Shown piece after piece: positions 1-56,648 of a stretch of DNA of 56,648 nucleotides (position 1 is the first letter of the stretch; each line of letters starts with the position of its first letter). A model generated the notes under the pieces. The model was not told the DNA's origin. It did no database searches and saw only the letters and a list, made by a program, of their open reading frames with translations. Origin of the DNA: a virus; the IMG/VR virus record IMGVR_UViG_3300038678_000070, positions 1 through 56,648 of that record. One strand, 5' to 3'. The position numbers were made by a program, and so were the translations under genes.

Positions 1-50
1 GCCGCGCAAATAGTCAGTATAATATTTCTAAACGATGGCGGAAGACATAA
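1..50 (+). CDS. Large terminase, C-terminal fragment (duplicate of 56522-56571)
   Basis: Codons from base 3 to the TAA at 48-50 encode the last 15 residues of the large terminase. They are a copy of 56522-56571, where the full gene is found. This is not a separate gene: it appears here because the circular genome was opened inside the terminase. The stop overlaps the next start by one base (TAATG). Confidence 0.93.
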   Translation, partial: RANSQYNISKRWRKT

Positions 51-127
51 TGGCTACTTGCAATTGCACAGGACAATGTAGAGATGGGAAAGGGTGCGGT
101 GGTACTAAATTTCAAGAGAAAGAGCCT
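1..127. repeat. Terminal direct repeat, left copy (assembly overlap)
   Basis: These 127 bases are identical to the last 127 bases of the window (56522-56648). The repeat cuts through the end of the terminase gene and the start of the next gene, and both genes read through intact when the ends are joined. That is what a circular contig with a k-mer-length overlap looks like; 127 is a common maximum assembly k-mer. I infer an assembly artefact of a circular or circularly permuted genome rather than a biological terminal repeat. Confidence 0.93.
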
Positions 128-30110: not shown

Positions 30111-30569
30111 CTAACTTTTTGCTCCTGCACGCATTTTTCCGAGTACCAAGGTACTGATGTGCGATTGCACAACCCCATATAAACTAGCAAGAGCCTTCTG
30201 CGTAACACCGCCAGCGGAGTACCGGGAGCGAATCTCTAATACTTGGCGATCGGACAGTTTTGCATACCCGTGGTTCTCCCCGCGCAATATAACTGTCCTT
30301 CCTTTGTTATCACGGTCCCGGTTGTTGTCTGCTCTTGTGCCAATAAATAGATGCTCTGGATTAACACATCTTCTGTTATCGCATTTATGCAGAACACACA
30401 TATCTTTTGGGATGGGACCGTTGGCCATTTCCCAGGATATTCTATGAGATGAGCTAACACCTCCATGCCAGAAAATATGACCATACCCTGAAGAGTCACG
30501 GGCGGCGATCCACTCCCAGCAATCGCCGCTCATGTCAACCTTGAGCCAGAACCGTAAAGCGTCACTCAT
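30111..30569 (-). CDS. HNH endonuclease (HNH_3 type, 152 aa)
   Basis: CWEWIAARDSSGYGHI opens the HNH_3 fold; SSHRISWEMANGPIP and VLHKCDNRRCVNPEHLFIGT (about 58-77) give the His, Asn and His residues and Cys ligands. A C-terminal helix-turn-helix (VTQKALASLYGVVQSHISTL) probably recognises DNA. It lies between the holin-like and spanin genes and overlaps the holin-like stop by four bases, so it splits the lysis cassette. Confidence 0.9.
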   Translation of the reverse strand: MSDALRFWLKVDMSGDCWEWIAARDSSGYGHIFWHGGVSSSHRISWEMANGPIPKDMCVLHKCDNRRCVNPEHLFIGTRADNNRDRDNKGRTVILRGENHGYAKLSDRQVLEIRSRYSAGGVTQKALASLYGVVQSHISTLVLGKMRAGAKS

Positions 30570-32096: not shown

Positions 32097-32567
32097 TTAT
32101 CCCGTAAAATTAGTGTATGCAAATTCTCCGTGCAGCTTGACCGCGTATACATCGTAGCACTTAGCTGCATCGGATTCGGAGTCAAAGAATCCTAGGAATA
32201 TTAGTTTCTTGTTAAACTGTATCTGCGCAACCCATTTGCCTGCGGCTGCACGAAAAGACACGCCCTTGTATTTTGAGGATGACGTTTTCCTTGCCCCGCA
32301 ATTCAACATATTTTCAGCATGAGTGACAGATCTTAAATTAGATCTACGATTGTCTAATCCATTGCGGTTCACATGGTCCGTAACCAAATGGTCTGGCGGC
32401 TCTAGGATCTTACGGTGCATAAAAACTGATTGCCGTCTCCCATCCGGCTGCATTATATTGCTTCTAGCATAGCCTAAGGCGTAATGCCAATTCCATTGAC
32501 TAAGCCAGGCATAATCGTCATCATCAACTAAAGCGACTTTTCCTTGGCTTAGCTTAATTTCTTTCAT
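32097..32567 (-). CDS. HNH-AP2 homing endonuclease (copy 2 of 5)
   Basis: The family start (MKEIKLSQGKVALVDDDDY), HNH core (FMHRKILEPPDHLVTDHVN, then NRRSNLRSVTHAEN) and AP2-like domain (SSKYKGVSFRAAAGKWVAQI, LGFFDSESDAAKCYDVYAVKLHG) are all present. It is closest in appearance to the copies at 35207 and 39391. Free-standing between VRR-NUC and small early genes. Confidence 0.93.
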   Translation of the reverse strand: MKEIKLSQGKVALVDDDDYAWLSQWNWHYALGYARSNIMQPDGRRQSVFMHRKILEPPDHLVTDHVNRNGLDNRRSNLRSVTHAENMLNCGARKTSSSKYKGVSFRAAAGKWVAQIQFNKKLIFLGFFDSESDAAKCYDVYAVKLHGEFAYTNFTG

Positions 32568-35206: not shown

Positions 35207-35689
35207 TTATTTACCTCCAAGGTTGAAAACGGCGAACTCGCCGTGCAGATGATACGCCGCAACGTCATAAGTTTCAGCGGCGTCACGCTCACTGTCAAAG
35301 AGGCCTAAGTTTAAATGCGTTGCTCCAGCTTTAATCCTGGCCCTCCATTTCCTTTTCTGCTTAGACCAATCTACGCCCTTATACATCGAGGTTGCAATTT
35401 TATTGCCGCCGCGGTTAAACCCGTTCTGGCTGTTGGTCACTGTTCGCAGGTTATCAACCCTATTATCTAGCTTGTCTCCGTTAATATGGTCGGTATATTT
35501 TCCCTTGCCAGTACGGTTAATTTCTCTGTGCATATAAAGCATCACCCCATACGGTTTACTGGCGTCCTCATAAGAGCGACGCATGGCATATCCGCAACCA
35601 CTATAATGCCACTTCCACTGCGCCAGATTGTGGTATTCGTCGTCATCAACTAGTGCTACTTTTCCTTGGGTTAATTGAATTTCTTTCAT
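35207..35689 (-). CDS. HNH-AP2 homing endonuclease (copy 3 of 5)
   Basis: Same layout as the other copies: MKEIQLTQGKVALVDDDEY, HNH core (YMHREINRTGKGKYTDHIN, VDNLRTVTNSQN) and AP2-like domain (TSMYKGVDWSKQKRKWRARI, LGLFDSERDAAETYDVAAYHLHG). Placed four bases inside the end of the primase-helicase gene (ATGA), i.e. adjacent to a conserved replication gene, as homing genes often are. Confidence 0.93.
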   Translation of the reverse strand: MKEIQLTQGKVALVDDDEYHNLAQWKWHYSGCGYAMRRSYEDASKPYGVMLYMHREINRTGKGKYTDHINGDKLDNRVDNLRTVTNSQNGFNRGGNKIATSMYKGVDWSKQKRKWRARIKAGATHLNLGLFDSERDAAETYDVAAYHLHGEFAVFNLGGK

Positions 35690-37344
35690 TGGTCTAAATA
35701 CCTCCCAGTTTTATATTCAAAGTCTAATTTCACCATACCGTGCTTGCCAACTTCAGGCTGACATTTTATTTTTTGTACATGGACATGCACTTCAGGGCTG
35801 TAAAGATCGTCCATATCACGCCAAACACAAATAATACAATCCGCGCTATTATACCAGAAGCTAGACCCGCTGATATCGAACGGTTGTGGCACAGGTTGCT
35901 TCGCACCGGGCCTTTCCTTGCGTAGTTTTGTCGGGTGAGCAACAACCCAAATATGAATATTATGCTTTGTGGCAAACCGAACAATCTTTCCTAACATACG
36001 TCCTGTGTACTGATGTTCTGTCATCCCGTGATCAACCACATGGTCGCAAGCCCCCCAAGGGTCGAACACAAACCCATTCAATCCATGCCTAGCAACTAGT
36101 TTCTCAGCATAATTCAAGAGGGACATGATATCCATCTTATCTTCCGAAGGAGTGATAAAAAAGAAATGGTCCCTCACCCACTGCATTTCTGGTATTAATT
36201 CTGAGTCAGGGAGTCTGTCTGGCAAACCAAGCCTGACAGACTTGCCAGAATGCAAGCCGACGAAATTACGAACATGGCGAGCGGGTGGCCTTGTCTCTGG
36301 CGAGAACAAGGCGAATTTCCAATCTTCACCAGTAGCTAAGTTCACAAGCAAAGCGTCAAGGAACGTACTTTTCCCATGAGAAGGTATTCCGCAAAGTATA
36401 GTCAACTCGCCAAGTTTTACCGTATAATTTTCATCCAAGGAGTACCACCCTGTGCTTGCCCCTGGCGGCAGACCATTATGGAATATATCAACAACCTCGT
36501 CTGCAAAGTCGTCAACCGTTGACACCCCCTCCATAGGGGGCCATTTCGCGGTGTCAACAGCAACACGCAACCCTTCGACCCCGTATTTCATTAGGCACGC
36601 GTTCGCATCTTTGATCCCTTCAGGCCATGTTAATACCTTACATAGATCGGCAGGGAGCAACCGGAGTAGCGTCTCTTTGAGCTTCTCTCCAGCTTCGTCA
36701 TTGTCCAGCGCGAGTACATGGCAAGACGCATCTTTCCATTTGGTGCTGTCGGATAGAAATTCCAGCTTATCACTAGCCCCATTCGGGACGGATACACAGC
36801 TTTTGAAACCGGCAACTTCGAGTGAGAGCGCATCAATCTCACCCTCCGTCCAGAATAAAGGCTCTCCTGCAATAATGTCGTCATATTTGTATAGGGTCTT
36901 CTCAGCTTCCTTGACCATCTTGAAGTTTTTATTACCATCACGAAACTTTATATTAACGATTTCCCCGTCTTTGCAATAAGGGAACCTGATTGCGTTGACC
37001 GTCTCGCCCAACTGGGGCATGTGTTCAGGGCCATCAGTGATCTTGTTGCGGGCTAGCACTTCTCCGGTAATCCCGCGACCGGCAAACCAAGCCCTCGCTT
37101 TGTCTGATAGGCCATCGACCACTGAATATTTAGGCTTGACAATGCGTTTGATTTTTTCGTCGTAGTTCAAACCCAGGGAACCGGCGAACGAGCAATTGTG
37201 GCAATTCCATAGCCCTTGCTCTACGTTCACGCTTAAGCAGGCGTCCCTGCTGTTCCTGCGGGACGCAGAGCATTCAGGACAGGTCGTCTTAAACGAACCT
37301 GTCCGCCCCTCGACGTTTATGCCGACGTCTTGGAATGACTTCAC
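35686..37344 (-). CDS. DNA primase-helicase, T7 gp4-like (552 aa)
   Basis: N-terminal zinc-binding domain: CPEC (residues 22-25) and CHNC (48-51). A TOPRIM domain follows with TEGEIDAL (165-172) and DNDEAG (213-218). The C-terminal DnaB-type helicase has Walker A GIPSHGKST (about 318-326), the strand GFVFDPWGACDHV as Walker B region, and VVAHPTK with the arginine/lysine finger region. Length is close to T7 gp4 (566 aa). It would unwind DNA and make RNA primers at the fork. No phage DNA polymerase was found, so it may recruit the host's. Confidence 0.93.
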   Translation of the reverse strand: MKSFQDVGINVEGRTGSFKTTCPECSASRRNSRDACLSVNVEQGLWNCHNCSFAGSLGLNYDEKIKRIVKPKYSVVDGLSDKARAWFAGRGITGEVLARNKITDGPEHMPQLGETVNAIRFPYCKDGEIVNIKFRDGNKNFKMVKEAEKTLYKYDDIIAGEPLFWTEGEIDALSLEVAGFKSCVSVPNGASDKLEFLSDSTKWKDASCHVLALDNDEAGEKLKETLLRLLPADLCKVLTWPEGIKDANACLMKYGVEGLRVAVDTAKWPPMEGVSTVDDFADEVVDIFHNGLPPGASTGWYSLDENYTVKLGELTILCGIPSHGKSTFLDALLVNLATGEDWKFALFSPETRPPARHVRNFVGLHSGKSVRLGLPDRLPDSELIPEMQWVRDHFFFITPSEDKMDIMSLLNYAEKLVARHGLNGFVFDPWGACDHVVDHGMTEHQYTGRMLGKIVRFATKHNIHIWVVAHPTKLRKERPGAKQPVPQPFDISGSSFWYNSADCIICVWRDMDDLYSPEVHVHVQKIKCQPEVGKHGMVKLDFEYKTGRYLDQ

Positions 37345-37745
37345 GTTTCAAGTAATTCAGGGGACTCGTAAATATTGCCGATTACTTCAAATGAATCAAT
37401 CAAGTGATTGTGAAATAGTGTTTTCCCGGCCTGATTCTTCGTTGCAAATCCCCCAAACTCTTCAACAAAAACAACCTCGCCCTCGTGCGGCAGAATATCG
37501 TTTTGAGTGATCATTTTGCATTTAACAACGTCGCCTTCAAAAATCTCCTTACCGTTCTTGTCTTTCAGGCCGGTGAATTGCATTAAGATTGCCTGAATCC
37601 CGTGATCCAGTTCTGCATCTTCAACAGAGTTCAAGAATTCCGCTAAAGACCTATCTTCCATCATTGACATTATTTGAGAGTCAAAAGTCTTATGCTTGCC
37701 ATTAATAAACCAAGCGCGGAGTTTGATAGCCCTAGAATTGCTCAT
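37341..37745 (-). CDS. YopX-family protein (134 aa)
   Basis: The pattern IKLRAWFINGKHK at the start, MQFTGLKDKNGKEIFEGDVVK in the middle (written here in part) and FEVIGNIYESPELLE at the end is diagnostic of the YopX family of phage proteins. Its biochemical role is not known; the fold has an SH3-like barrel. Overlaps the primase-helicase start by four bases. Confidence 0.88.
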   Translation of the reverse strand: MSNSRAIKLRAWFINGKHKTFDSQIMSMMEDRSLAEFLNSVEDAELDHGIQAILMQFTGLKDKNGKEIFEGDVVKCKMITQNDILPHEGEVVFVEEFGGFATKNQAGKTLFHNHLIDSFEVIGNIYESPELLET

Positions 37746-37930
37746 TGTTCCCCCTCCGGTAAGTACGGCGGTTGTTTAGAGGTTTCATAGCACCCCGCCG
37801 CGATTAGTTCGTCTTCCAGCATCATTTGATTAGCGGTTGCTCTGCACTCTTTCAATGTCCCATCAAATACCTTCTGCGTGCTACCCAGTGTGTCGAGAGA
37901 CAACACCCAAAGGATTATTAAGATTTTCAT
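37742..37930 (-). CDS. Small exported protein (62 aa)
   Basis: ATG at 37930 overlaps the upstream tiny gene (ATGA); a start five codons earlier is possible. MKILIILWVLSLDTLGSTQ is a Sec-type signal peptide; the mature part has two Cys (KECRATANQ, AAGCYETS) that may form a disulfide. A short protein of similar plan lies at 53629. Probably periplasmic, unknown role. Confidence 0.55.
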   Translation of the reverse strand: MKILIILWVLSLDTLGSTQKVFDGTLKECRATANQMMLEDELIAAGCYETSKQPPYLPEGEQ

Positions 37931-38004
37931 TTGAAAATAGCCCAAGCGACAACCGATAACATTGCAAAGAAAGAGAAATAAGCAAAAGATTCAGGCCAAG
38001 TCAT
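37927..38004 (-). CDS. Tiny single-span membrane protein (25 aa)
   Basis: Nested between its neighbours with overlaps at both ends. The 25 residues (MTWPESFAYFSFFAMLSVVA plus WAIFK) form one hydrophobic helix with a Lys end. Coupled translation with the 37991 gene upstream and the 37742 gene downstream supports it. Confidence 0.5.
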   Translation of the reverse strand: MTWPESFAYFSFFAMLSVVAWAIFK

Positions 38005-38175: not shown

Positions 38176-38844
38176 TTAAAATACCCTCGTCATTTTATAC
38201 CCTTCCGTCTTCTTTAAATAATCAGGACAAGGGCTATTAAACCTTACAGTCACAAGCAAAGGAATTTTTTTATCTTGTAGCACCTTGAAATGTGTCCGTA
38301 TTGCTCGTTTTCTCTCTTTGAGCATTCTTTTCATCAACCCCCTGTAGTCATTTGTTGATATTGATAACAATGGCCCCTGTTCCATGATGAATAAGTCTTT
38401 AGAATGTGATTCGATGGAATATTGGCCATCTAGCATAGTCTCAAAGACAAATACCGCCCCCACACAGAGTTGCAAAAGGTACTGCTCTTCCGCAAGAAAA
38501 GATTGAACGTACTTTGTAAGCGAGATTGCCTGCTCATGCGTCAATGGTTCCCCATCCAATTTCGGAGAACCAAACGCAGGCATGGCTGTTCCTGGCACTC
38601 CATGTAAAATTGTGTGCACAATCGCATGAGTATCCCCGGAAAGATGCCGCATCTTGTTATAGTCTGTAAAGTCTCGCGGCTTTGGATTCAAATGCTCCGC
38701 TAAAACGCCTTGCCCATCACCATAAACTCCGTGGCAGGTCATACAACGCTCTTGGTACAAACGACCTACTTGGGAATCATCGGCCAGCACTACTTCAGCC
38801 ATAAAAAATGATAAACAAGCTAAAAGTAATAATTTAATTTTCAC
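38176..38844 (-). CDS. Phage-encoded c-type cytochrome with unknown C-terminal domain (222 aa)
   Basis: Residues 1-21 are a Sec signal peptide ending VVLA. The mature N-terminus is a class I cytochrome c domain (about 24-118): heme-attachment motif CMTCH at 34-38, GDGQG at 42-46, a PKPRDFTD segment, and GTAMPAFG with Met88 as the likely second heme ligand, then a closing helix (EQAISLTKYVQSFL). Residues 120-222 form a second region with strands (LCVGAVFVFETML, IPLLVTVRF) and a basic helix (RGLMKRMLKERKRAIRTHF) that I do not recognise. It starts with GTG overlapping the zinc-ribbon stop (GTGA), so it belongs to the early operon. It would be exported and matured by host cytochrome c machinery, and could feed electrons to or from the host respiratory chain during infection. 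Confidence 0.88.
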   Translation of the reverse strand: MKIKLLLLACLSFFMAEVVLADDSQVGRLYQERCMTCHGVYGDGQGVLAEHLNPKPRDFTDYNKMRHLSGDTHAIVHTILHGVPGTAMPAFGSPKLDGEPLTHEQAISLTKYVQSFLAEEQYLLQLCVGAVFVFETMLDGQYSIESHSKDLFIMEQGPLLSISTNDYRGLMKRMLKERKRAIRTHFKVLQDKKIPLLVTVRFNSPCPDYLKKTEGYKMTRVF

Positions 38845-39041
38845 TTATTATTCTCCTTTTCTTCCCAGTGGATACAGCCGAAATGCTCCCTAGTGGTTAA
38901 TTCGCTGGTTTCAATTATATCGCACTCCATACAATTCCCGAATTGATCCCCTTTGATCTCTTCCCAATGCCGACAATCCCCGCAAGTGCCGATCAAGGTT
39001 TTGCCTCTCACTGAAAAAGCCTTTTGGTGCCGGGAGGTCAT
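38841..39041 (-). CDS. Small zinc-ribbon protein, GKTLIGTC family copy 2 (66 aa)
   Basis: Contains the module GKTLIGTCGDCRHWEE (13-28), then GNCMECD and the ending FGCIHWEEKE. Two CxxC pairs plus a last Cys suggest zinc binding. DNA at its start and end closely matches the copy at 31038, including the end that supplies the ribosome site of the next gene, here the cytochrome. Likely a duplicated cassette. Confidence 0.65.
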   Translation of the reverse strand: MTSRHQKAFSVRGKTLIGTCGDCRHWEEIKGDQFGNCMECDIIETSELTTREHFGCIHWEEKENNK

Positions 39042-39390: not shown

Positions 39391-39864
39391 TTAAAAATTC
39401 GTCCAAGCGAATTCACCAAAATACCGTCCCGCCGCTTCGTCGTAAGCGCGTGCCGCTTCAATTTCAGTTTTGTAATAACCAATGTGTTGGGTTTTATTTT
39501 TTTCAGTGTTTACTTGGACACGCCACAATTCCCGCTTCCACGCCTTGCATACTCCCTTGTATTTAGAGGTTGATCGTTTTGTGAGTTTCTTCGGTGAATT
39601 CATCTGGTTTTGAGAGTTAGTACAATTTCTTAAATTGGGTTTCTGGCAATCAAGCCTATCCCCATTTATGTGATCTGTCTGCATTCCCTTTGGCGTTTTA
39701 TTAACAATCCGGTGGATATAAATTGTTTTTATTTTTCCGGCTATACGTTCATTTCTAGCGGCATAACCATCAGAAACTAATTTCCAATTAAATTCATTCA
39801 AAAACTCGAAATCCCCATCGTCAACTAATGCAAACTTTCCTTGGGTTAATGGTATTTTTTTCAT
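39391..39864 (-). CDS. HNH-AP2 homing endonuclease (copy 4 of 5)
   Basis: MKKIPLTQGKFALVDDGDFEF start, HNH core (YIHRIVNKTPKGMQTDHIN, KPNLRNCTNSQN) and AP2-like domain (TSKYKGVCKAWKRELWRVQV, IGYYKTEIEAARAYDEAAG). Flanked on both sides by gene-free, highly structured sequence, unlike the other copies. Confidence 0.93.
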   Translation of the reverse strand: MKKIPLTQGKFALVDDGDFEFLNEFNWKLVSDGYAARNERIAGKIKTIYIHRIVNKTPKGMQTDHINGDRLDCQKPNLRNCTNSQNQMNSPKKLTKRSTSKYKGVCKAWKRELWRVQVNTEKNKTQHIGYYKTEIEAARAYDEAAGRYFGEFAWTNF

Positions 39865-40347: not shown

Positions 40348-41205
40348 TCAGAACGGTATATCCGGCACATCTCCGTGGTCAGACTGGTCGCCGCCACCGT
40401 GAGGCCACTCCTTTTCAACATACGTGCATACCCTCTCATAATCTTTCCAGCCCAAGCCATCAATCCCATCCACCTTGTAATGTTCTTTCAGGTGAGCGTT
40501 CAAGTCTTCGATGGCGACTCCGGCGCCCATCGTAATAGCGTACAGGCGCTTGCCTTGTGCTTTGCTGATCGGGGTGCCACGGTCGCCCATGCCAGGGTGT
40601 TTATTCGGAGCAGACTTGGTGTATGTTTTCTTTGGCTGTTGAGTCGGAGCGTGGGCTTCTCTTTGAGAGAATTCCTGCCCACCAACCACTTCCTTGGCGA
40701 CCTTCATAACGTCACGCTCAGGGATTGCATCGCTACTCTCGCCAGTAACATATTTGTTACTATCCCATTGGCTACAAAAAACATCAGCTCCCGCCCCTAT
40801 GAAGCTGGCGGCCTTAGTAATTGCGTCCGTCAACGATTTCTTCGGGGCGTCCTCGTCAGTTACCCAGCCTCGGACTGCCTCTTTCCTGGTGAAGTACGTT
40901 TGCCCGTAGGCGGGGATTTCTTCTGACTTTACATCATTCTCTATGTACCAAAGGCCAATGCGAACAACATGAAGGATGGTCTTGTTGCCCTCGTCTCCAT
41001 GCCCGACATGGTAGCCCTCATCATGGACATTGTACCCCCACCCAATACCGCAAGGACCGAAACGCTCGGTCAGACTGTGGATAGTATAATACGCATTGAT
41101 AGCTGTCATAGCGTATCCCTTCCCGGTCACATCTTTCAATGCTTTAGGGTCAGTAGTTTTTAGCGCATTCCATATTTCTAAATTATCTGGTTTCTCTTCT
41201 TTCAA
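40348..41205 (-). CDS. ERF/Rad52-like single-strand annealing protein (285 aa)
   Basis: A TTG at 41205 has AAAGGAGAA at ideal spacing and is chosen over an upstream ATG. The pattern WNALKTTDPKALK...AINAYYTIHSLTERFGPCGIGWGY (in parts, about 8-60) and KKSLTDAITKAASFIGAGADVF (about 130-150) is that of phage ssDNA-annealing proteins of the ERF/Rad52-like group. The linker is rich in Pro/Gln/Thr, and the C-terminus has a helical domain and an acidic tail ending PDIPF, similar to SSB-binding tips. It would anneal strands in replication and recombination. Confidence 0.72.
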   Translation of the reverse strand: MKEEKPDNLEIWNALKTTDPKALKDVTGKGYAMTAINAYYTIHSLTERFGPCGIGWGYNVHDEGYHVGHGDEGNKTILHVVRIGLWYIENDVKSEEIPAYGQTYFTRKEAVRGWVTDEDAPKKSLTDAITKAASFIGAGADVFCSQWDSNKYVTGESSDAIPERDVMKVAKEVVGGQEFSQREAHAPTQQPKKTYTKSAPNKHPGMGDRGTPISKAQGKRLYAITMGAGVAIEDLNAHLKEHYKVDGIDGLGWKDYERVCTYVEKEWPHGGGDQSDHGDVPDIPF

Positions 41206-41269
41206 AACTGTTCTCCTTTGGTTTTTATTTACCTGGAAGCGATTACATCGCAACAGGCTAGTTTAAATT

Positions 41270-51233: not shown

Positions 51234-51418
51234 TCTATTCTATGTCCTTCAGTTAAAAATTTCGGCTCAACCCAATCGTAATAAGGGGAAGACTCGCCGC
51301 ACCAGTGGCAAACGTAGTAATACAAATAATGTCCGTAAGCATCTTCTTCGTTCTTAATTCTCTCAATGACGCCGTTCTTGCCGTTCACGTTATTGTAAAC
51401 TTTAGCTCCGATAATCAT
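51230..51418 (-). CDS. Hypothetical small protein (62 aa)
   Basis: Begins MIIGAKVYNNVNGKNGVIER, a small beta-barrel-like pattern, with YYVCHWCGESSPYYDW, a CxxC pair. Coupled by four-base overlaps on both sides. Not recognised. Confidence 0.55.
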   Translation of the reverse strand: MIIGAKVYNNVNGKNGVIERIKNEEDAYGHYLYYYVCHWCGESSPYYDWVEPKFLTEGHRIE

Positions 51419-51897
51419 TCTTCTACCTCGTTTAGGTTAGCGTATTCGCCAAAATATCGCTTCGCCATGACGTTATAAGCCAGACCAGCTCCCTCCTCTG
51501 TGAAGAACCACTTGATCAACGCTTTTTCTCCTTTTTTGCGAAGCTGGGCACACCATCTCCGCTTGCCAGCCGCCTTGTAGGTCACACCCTTGTATTTTGA
51601 TAGATTGCCATCAGATCGTTTCTTTTGATTTATGCAATTCTGAGATCTAGTCGCAACCCGCAGATTGCCTCGCCTGTTGTCCAGCTTATCTCGGTTGATG
51701 TGGTCTGTGTCGACCCCCTCTTCAGGGTTTAATACGGCACGGTGCATGTATATTTTACCTTGCTTCCCGTTGTCCTTCCGAAAATTTCTCAACGCGTACC
51801 CTTGATGGTGATAGTACCATTGATGCTTTGATAATTCATCAAAATCTTCATCGTCCACCAAAGCAAATTTACCCCTACTTAATTCTATTTTTTTCAT
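51415..51897 (-). CDS. HNH-AP2 homing endonuclease (copy 5 of 5)
   Basis: MKKIELSRGKFALVDDEDF start, HNH core (YMHRAVLNPEEGVDTDHIN, RRGNLRVATRSQN) and AP2-like domain (LSKYKGVTYKAAGKRRWCAQ, AGLAYNVMAKRYFGE). It lies next to the metallophosphoesterase gene, in a transcription unit separate from copies 2-4. Confidence 0.93.
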   Translation of the reverse strand: MKKIELSRGKFALVDDEDFDELSKHQWYYHHQGYALRNFRKDNGKQGKIYMHRAVLNPEEGVDTDHINRDKLDNRRGNLRVATRSQNCINQKKRSDGNLSKYKGVTYKAAGKRRWCAQLRKKGEKALIKWFFTEEGAGLAYNVMAKRYFGEYANLNEVEE

Positions 51898-54995: not shown

Positions 54996-56571
54996 GTTTT
55001 CAGCCTTCTACGAAGAGCTGTCGCCTAAAGAAAAGAAAGAGTTTGATGCGGTGATTGAGCAGGATGTGTCCAGATCTATCTGGATTCCGCTTGTCAACGA
55101 GAAAGACTCGGCCCAAAAGACCCCGCAACAATTGGCGGTAGATTCAGAAGCCGACATACTCCTGTATGGAGGCGCCGCCTTTGGGGGCAAGACAAACATG
55201 CTGTGCGGGCTTGCCCTGACAGCCCACAAAAGGACTTCTATCTTTCGTAGGAAGAAGGAAGACCTGATGCCGATATCAGAAGAACTGATTAAAATCAGAG
55301 GCACTAAAAAAGGGTACAACAGTCAACTCAAGAGGTTGAATACTGAAGATGGACGAAACATACGACTGGCGGGGATGCAGTACGAACAGGACAAGCAATC
55401 CTTTAAAGGGGATGCAAGGGATGGTTATTTTTTCGACGAGATCGTTGACTTCTCCGAGAGTCAGTTTCGATTCGTTATCACTTGGAACCGATCTGCTGAT
55501 CCCAAGCAAAGATGTCGAGTCATTTGCACAACGAATCCGCCGACCAATAATGATGGAGACTGGATTATCGGATTCTGGGGGCCGTGGTTGGACCCGGATT
55601 ACCCTAATCCCGCGCTCCCAGGAGAGTTAAGATGGTTTATTTCAGATGAAGAGGGAAAGGACAGAGAGGTTCCCGGCCCAGAACCAGTTCCCGTTAATGG
55701 GGAACCGGCCTATCCGAAAAGCAGGACTTTCATTCCATCGTCTATTGACGATAATCCTTTCGCGACAATCGCATACCGCGCAACGCTGCAATCATTACCG
55801 GAACCTCTCCGTTCTCAAATGCTCACAGGTGACTTCTTGGCAGGCAGAGAAGATGACCCGTGGCAGGTTATTCCTACCGAGTGGGTAGAAGCGGCGATGG
55901 ACCGCTGGCCTGAGAAGAAGCCTCCTCACTTGAAGATGGATACAATTGGGGTAGATACAGCCAGAGGCGGCAAGGACTTATTCGTCCTTGCGCCGAGATA
56001 TGACTGGTGGTTTGATGAGTTGGTAATAGTTAAAGGGGAGGACGTCCCTGATGGTCCTAAAGGTGCGGCTCTAGTCACACAACACGTCAGAAACGGGGCC
56101 AGTATCAACATTGATATCATTGGCGGGTCAGGGACTTCAGTATACGACCATCTTAAACAAGTTGGCGCAAATGTCAACCCTGTTGATGGTCGGCACGAAA
56201 GTCATGCCAGAGACATGACTGGCTCAATCGGGTTTTTTAATAAGCGCGCCGAGAACTACTGGAGGCTCAGAGAAGCTCTTGACCCAGACTCAGGAGAGAA
56301 CATCGCCCTGCCGTTTGACAGACTCCTAAAGTCTGATCTGACAACTCCGAGATGGAGGATGACGGCACGGGGCATACAGGTTGAAGGGAAATATTCTCAG
56401 ACCTCCGACGGCTTTGGTGACATCATAAAACGCATCGGCAGGTCAACGGATAGGGGTGACGCGATTGTCTATGCCTTTGTTGAGGGCAAGAAGAAATTCA
56501 CTCGATTTGCGCGTGGGCCAAGCCGCGCAAATAGTCAGTATAATATTTCTAAACGATGGCGGAAGACATAA
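54979..56571 (+). CDS. Large terminase subunit (TerL)
   Basis: ATPase motifs: Walker A GGAAFGGKT (64-72), Walker B YFFDE (about 150-154) and the coupling strand CRVICTTNPP (about 178-187). The nuclease domain has IGVDTARGGKD (about 318-328, first Asp), a second acidic strand SINIDIIGGSG and SDGFGDIIKRIGRSTDRGDA with the last Asp near residue 495. Length 530 is typical. It translocates and cuts DNA at the portal. The gene ends in the duplicated terminal repeat. Confidence 0.93.
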   Translation: MTTKAEFSAFYEELSPKEKKEFDAVIEQDVSRSIWIPLVNEKDSAQKTPQQLAVDSEADILLYGGAAFGGKTNMLCGLALTAHKRTSIFRRKKEDLMPISEELIKIRGTKKGYNSQLKRLNTEDGRNIRLAGMQYEQDKQSFKGDARDGYFFDEIVDFSESQFRFVITWNRSADPKQRCRVICTTNPPTNNDGDWIIGFWGPWLDPDYPNPALPGELRWFISDEEGKDREVPGPEPVPVNGEPAYPKSRTFIPSSIDDNPFATIAYRATLQSLPEPLRSQMLTGDFLAGREDDPWQVIPTEWVEAAMDRWPEKKPPHLKMDTIGVDTARGGKDLFVLAPRYDWWFDELVIVKGEDVPDGPKGAALVTQHVRNGASINIDIIGGSGTSVYDHLKQVGANVNPVDGRHESHARDMTGSIGFFNKRAENYWRLREALDPDSGENIALPFDRLLKSDLTTPRWRMTARGIQVEGKYSQTSDGFGDIIKRIGRSTDRGDAIVYAFVEGKKKFTRFARGPSRANSQYNISKRWRKT

Positions 56572-56648
56572 TGGCTACTTGCAATTGCACAGGACAATGT
56601 AGAGATGGGAAAGGGTGCGGTGGTACTAAATTTCAAGAGAAAGAGCCT
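56522..56648. repeat. Terminal direct repeat, right copy (assembly overlap)
   Basis: Exact copy of bases 1-127. Joining the copies gives continuous TerL and small Cys-rich genes. Confidence 0.93.
56571..56648 (+). CDS. Small Cys-rich protein, N-terminal fragment (duplicate of 50-127)
   Basis: The first 26 codons of the Cys-rich protein annotated at 50-199, cut by the window end. Present only because of the terminal overlap. Confidence 0.9.
   Translation, partial: MATCNCTGQCRDGKGCGGTKFQEKEP

Follow-up and report, generated by a model that had tools for sequence, protein, structure and literature searches.

A predicted exported cytochrome c of class I type encoded within a phage genome, and the recurrence of cytochromes c among uncultured phages

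The virus record IMGVR_UViG_3300038678_000070 raises the question of why a phage should carry a gene for a c-type cytochrome and what such a protein might do in the infected host. Control of host energy metabolism by phages is well known for photosynthesis, with plastocyanin and photosystem genes as examples; for respiration in heterotrophic bacteria such control is, to our knowledge, poorly documented. An initial annotation, made by reading the sequence, had assigned the open reading frame at 38176-38844 to the class I cytochromes c and had suggested that it might act as an auxiliary gene affecting the electron flow of the host.

We analysed the whole record, a complete-looking virus contig of 56,648 nt, which is referred to as the window. 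The following features define the surroundings of the cytochrome gene:

1..127, plus strand, direct repeat, equal to 56522-56648 (the first and the last 127 bases are identical)
35686..37344, minus strand, DNA primase/helicase (phrog_239, 5.9e-89)
37341..37745, minus strand, YopX-family protein (Pfam PF09643, 2.1e-23)
37742..37945, minus strand, 67-aa ORF downstream of the cytochrome gene, secreted-looking (MKILIILWVLSLDTLGS...), with two cysteines
38841..39041, minus strand, 66-aa Cys-rich (zinc-ribbon-like) ORF upstream of the cytochrome gene
40348..41253, minus strand, phage replication/recombination protein (phrog_7838, labelled exonuclease)

We take the length of the terminal repeat, 127 bp, to be that of a common assembler k-mer, which means that the contig is closed; the repeat marks the closed assembly path of the record. 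The same record encodes TerL, the head-tail adaptor (portal), the major head protein (MCP) and a T7-like tail tube B, with counterparts in Pelagibacter and Vibrio phages. The cytochrome gene is located about 18 kb from either contig end in a minus-strand replication block together with the primase-helicase, the YopX protein and recombination genes, and its GC and GC3 values resemble those of its neighbours. It is a metabolic gene inside a bona fide phage genome.

The 67-aa ORF has 32-35% identical relatives in the capsid-related contigs L003, L004 and L014, and these three records contain no cytochrome. The primase led to one short contig, also without a cytochrome, and no relatives of the gene at 40348-41253 were found. 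The upstream ORF, taken for a zinc-ribbon gene in the initial annotation, is indeed rich in cysteines, but it has no Pfam match above the cut-off. The window also contains four HNH endonuclease genes, all assigned to phrog_99, at 32097-32567, 35207-35689, 39391-39864 and 51415-51897; the copy at 39391-39864, the one of the four that was run against Pfam, contains an AP2 domain, and a further HNH_3 gene is present at 30111-30569. Judged from these sequences, the HNH genes are likely homing endonucleases dispersed through the genome. A scan of the window for promoters and terminators gave a number of sites not above that in shuffled sequences.

The cytochrome gene itself is composed of the following parts:

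38176..38844, minus strand, phage cytochrome c CDS, intact ORF of 222 aa with a GTG start and the stop codon at 38176-38178
38853..38857, minus strand, ribosome-binding site AGGAG, at a distance of 8 nt from the GTG start
38782..38844, minus strand, signal peptide read from the sequence, residues 1-21 (MKIKLLLLACLSFFMAEVVLA)
38491..38781, minus strand, cytochrome c domain of class I type (residues 22-118), supported by Pfam, PDB, Foldseek and alignments
38731..38745, minus strand, heme-binding motif C34-M-T-C37-H38, invariant in alignments
38581..38583, minus strand, Met88, the presumed sixth heme ligand, in GTAMPAFG (residues 85-92)
38179..38490, minus strand, C-terminal part, residues 119-222, with Cys127 and Cys206 and a tentative counterpart in T4-like viruses

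The coordinates, the strand, the length, the GTG start and both heme-ligand motifs were confirmed exactly, as was the GTGA in which the GTG start of the cytochrome gene overlaps the TGA of the 66-aa ORF. Residues 1-21 show by eye the typical features of a Sec signal, with K2 and K4, a hydrophobic run and a putative cleavage site after VLA21 ahead of DD. A Pfam search with the 222-aa protein gave matches above the cut-off for Cytochrome_CBB3 (PF13442; 35.2 bits versus a cut-off of 27, 1.5e-8) and for Cytochrom_C (PF00034; 31.7 bits versus 21.3, 4.1e-7), both within residues 25-115, and bore out the assignment to class I. The PDB cytochrome 6h5l was matched by phmmer at an E-value of 4e-12. Using an AlphaFold2 model as query, which was of moderate quality (pLDDT 60-73 within the cytochrome domain), Foldseek returned the c-type cytochromes 5mxy, 6lod and 6h5l as top matches with a probability of 1.00 and E-values from 3e-3 to 1e-2. 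In both alignments (A1 and A2) none of the residues C34, C37, H38 and Met88 varies among the bacterial and phage relatives. It is well supported by these comparisons that 38176-38844 encodes a class I-type c-type cytochrome with a predicted export signal.

The initial annotation had treated the complete ORF as a cytochrome. This is correct for residues 22-118, approximately; the other 104 residues are not cytochrome and had been overlooked. Residues 119-222 have no family match in Pfam and PHROG-type profile searches, and the AlphaFold model of this part, with a pLDDT of 40, was of insufficient quality for a fold assignment. The possibility that the C-terminal half derives from a separate gene joined by a frameshift was rejected, as stops break the other two frames across the C-terminal half. 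The protein was also compared with CcoP, subunit III of the cbb3 oxidase, and rejected as a member: the score with TIGR00782 was 20.7 versus 179.95 bits, there is one heme motif, and no anchor is present besides the signal.

Among the bacterial proteins sampled, those nearest to the phage domain belong to cytochrome c/FTR1 iron permeases encoded by plasmids of proteobacteria, the similarity being to their cytochrome domain, for example 43% identity over 88 aa to the FTR1 iron permease of Janthinobacterium (WP_070221987). The phage domain and the FTR1-permease domains have the signature CxxCHGxxGxGxG...PKPxxFTD...GVxGTxMPAF in common. The phage protein differs in being small and predicted to be exported, in lacking both the domain that follows in the permease and the FTR1 membrane part, and in having a C-terminal part of its own. 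Membership in the FTR1 iron permeases was rejected, as the protein ends at 222 aa and shows no FTR1 match in Pfam. In a maximum-likelihood tree of 93 columns, in which bacterial cytochromes were thinly sampled, the domain of the window was placed beside the FTR1-permease domains with a support of 91/91.

Relatives in viruses were sought by a scan of the IMG/VR viral contigs for CxxCHGxxGxGxG and by two stricter scans. Among the 120 IMG/VR stretches listed for this pattern at least about 90 are true cytochromes c belonging to several families, and representatives were confirmed by Pfam (Cytochrom_C/Cytochrome_CBB3). At least 75 of those listed form one family, whose proteins measure about 147 aa and carry a membrane segment at the N-terminus and the motifs GCAACHG...MSSTMWAQ plus C[TY]GxCY. 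In 33 of the 75 listed members of this membrane-anchored family nrdB is located on the same strand at most 600 bp upstream; 61 members have more than 1.2 kb of upstream sequence. In marine T4-like contigs (L099:4186-7933, L113, L118, L141 and others) the membrane-anchored cytochrome is located directly behind nrdA-nrdB. No match to this family among isolate phages and no published description of it in the open-access literature were found. A different case is a 132-aa cytochrome c at L092:7863-8261, which is located between the dUTPase gene and another phage gene and overlaps both; L092 is an independent phage with a PolIII-type DNA polymerase and a dUTPase. Intact cytochrome copies are present among core phage genes (gp23, gp41, dUTPase, nrdAB) in independent lineages.

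These viral cytochromes, namely the MSSTMWAQ family and those of L092, L163, L162/L167, L112/L147 and L125/L144, belong to subfamilies that differ from that of the window. The strict pattern CHGx2GxGxGx7PKPx2F was found in only eight other viral contigs, and an exact peptide scan of viral and genome contigs revealed no close relative of the window protein. A search for a second cytochrome (PF13442) within the phage group of the window was negative in 47 records, 46 of them related by MCP and one by the primase, many of which are fragments. The window protein and two family representatives had no convincing match among 50,697 isolate phage records. The initial statement that cytochromes c are rare in phages fits the isolates that were tested, but not the uncultured viruses: phage cytochromes c are not singular and are seen again and again in uncultured phages, most of which are unrelated to one another. 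This recurrence suggests that it is common for a phage to bring an electron carrier of its own.

Some of the contigs contain proteins with a layout similar to that of the window protein. In the marine T4-like contigs L187, L201, L224 and L226 a protein of 213-217 aa consists of a signal peptide, a cytochrome domain and a C-terminal part of about 97 aa; the copies in L133 and L107 are truncated. The cytochrome domain is about 40% identical to that of the window, and the total length is close to its 222 aa. Both kinds have exactly four cysteines in the mature protein, the heme pair included, with the third in an 'LC', ten residues beyond the SFL at the end of the cytochrome domain, and the fourth near the C-terminus. 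The T4-like cytochromes differ in coming from another phage type, with gp23, gp41 or UvsX as neighbours: in L224 the gene is preceded by gp23, which encodes the capsid protein, and by a thioredoxin-fold gene with a signal peptide, and in L226 by UvsX and the gp41 helicase. The thioredoxin-fold protein (Thioredoxin_2, DUF3721) is encoded at L224:6857-7456 between gp23 and the cytochrome gene. On the opposite strand of this T4-like contig a fatty acid desaturase is encoded at L224:8594-9511 (Pfam FA_desaturase, 6.9e-21). The dN/dS of the cytochrome domain, calculated from four T4-like copies only, was 0.08-0.26, which argues that the T4-like cytochrome is kept by selection.

Comparison of the C-terminal parts of the window and T4-like proteins gave a local score that was reached by 28-57 of 2000 shuffles. 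The semi-global z varied with the gap cost from 0.7 to 4, the shuffle significance likewise depended on it and lay between about 0.2 and 0.0014, and the probability assigned by hhalign was about 1%. Homology of the two C-terminal parts is suggested by these values but not proven, and a two-part design common to both proteins is likely but likewise unproven. A genome scan for the same C-terminal part in bacteria, using patterns within the cytochrome domain, yielded one MAG cytochrome, which lacks it. A Sphingobium cytochrome was dismissed as a relative of the T4 type, since it offered a 24%-identity stretch only. In the tree the window and T4-like domains were not grouped, although a forced pairing was not rejected (p-AU 0.066). 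A single clade of the compared phage cytochromes (L092, L163, L162, L205, L112 and the T4-like types) was weakly rejected with a p-AU of 0.03. The simplest reading of these sequences is that phages may have captured cytochromes repeatedly and independently.

For the function of the window protein we favour, with about as much belief as doubt, a soluble single-heme carrier that is exported by Sec, matured by the host in the periplasm and used to sustain or redirect respiration during infection. The phage gene would give rise to a soluble cytochrome c of class I type, extended at its C-terminus by a part of phage type. As the window contains no detectable Cytochrom_C_asm maturation gene, the heme would be attached in the periplasm by the Ccm machinery of the host. 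The cytochrome could then shuttle electrons from periplasmic donors, such as cytochrome bc1 or a dehydrogenase, to a terminal oxidase or another acceptor, and respiratory electron flow, hence the supply of ATP, would be kept or redirected. The C-terminal part contains two cysteines that would be able to form a pair in the periplasm, and it may serve to attach the carrier to one specific partner. Because the closest bacterial relatives sampled are iron-permease domains and not respiratory c551/c552 carriers, the electron partner may also be another one.

The same relationship is an argument for an unlikely alternative, a periplasmic cytochrome that serves iron or copper handling or exchanges electrons with thiol proteins. 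Presumably the cytochrome domain of FTR1 permeases serves iron/copper handling, and several of the nearest relatives, which the tree also places next to the window domain, are encoded beside metal-resistance genes on plasmids; the thioredoxin-fold gene preceding the L224 cytochrome and the additional pair of cysteines beyond the cytochrome domain would suit a thiol partner. Against this role, the window protein has no FTR1 permease domain, a Thioredoxin_2 gene is lacking in the window, and the identity to the permease domains is only about 40%. The unusual C-terminal extension, absent from the bacterial relatives sampled, could also indicate a decoy or inhibitor that competes for host maturation or for docking at the oxidase and in this way dampens respiration, influences the timing of lysis or blocks a redox-triggered defence. 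We regard this as rather improbable, as the heme and Met ligands are fully kept and nothing in the sequence demands inhibition.

That the gene might be a recently acquired host gene without any phage function is suggested by its sole occurrence in the phage group (0 of the 47 other records, many of them fragments). The translational overlap with a phage gene, the neighbour-like GC and GC3, the extra C-terminal part together with the lack of a close bacterial match, and the purifying selection on similar genes in other phages (the T4-like set) speak against such a passenger, which we consider distinctly doubtful. An assembly chimera or host contamination is highly improbable: the contig closes on itself via the 127-bp repeat, other viral contigs of independent origin contain comparable genes, and the gene is located well inside the contig, where it overlaps the short ORF next to it in the same orientation. 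The closed contig, the GTGA overlap and the internal position make host contamination unlikely, in agreement with the initial annotation. Both the passenger and the artefact readings are unlikely, and the host-matured respiratory carrier remains our preferred reading.

An auxiliary role of viral cytochromes in electron flow, which the initial annotation had regarded as new, has precedents. A table citing Trubl et al. lists ccoP as a viral auxiliary gene (PMC12713726), soxD has been annotated as such (PMC8190135), and subunit I of the cbb3 oxidase was found in viral-fraction reads (PMC3474794). Like the window protein, viral ccoP and soxD products are reported as cytochrome c-type electron-transfer proteins on viral contigs, but they are listed as subunits named after a pathway, and the window protein fails the ccoP model, the one of the two covered by the model comparison. 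The plastocyanin petE of cyanophages is a soluble carrier with a signal peptide, as predicted for the window cytochrome, and has been suggested to feed cytochrome c oxidase (review, PMC10452541); it differs in being a copper protein and in the cyanobacterial hosts. Electron-carrier cytochromes were not observed in the nitrogen-cycling phages of PMC8115048. No publication describing class I cytochromes c encoded by phages was found in the open-access literature, an absence that is not proof.

Taken together, the initial annotation was right in kind and is partly supported, with its claim of rarity corrected, and the auxiliary function that it proposed, in the electron flow of the host, is a plausible hypothesis. 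We suggest, somewhat tentatively, that several uncultured lineages repeatedly acquire and keep periplasmic c-type cytochromes, including a phage-specific two-part kind with a cysteine-bearing C-terminal module, and that this may represent a widespread unnamed strategy for the control of host electron flow. A phage cytochrome c that is small and expressible, and that has independent relatives in many viral contigs, provides a directly testable case for the question of whether an electron carrier made by a phage keeps the respiratory chain running during infection.
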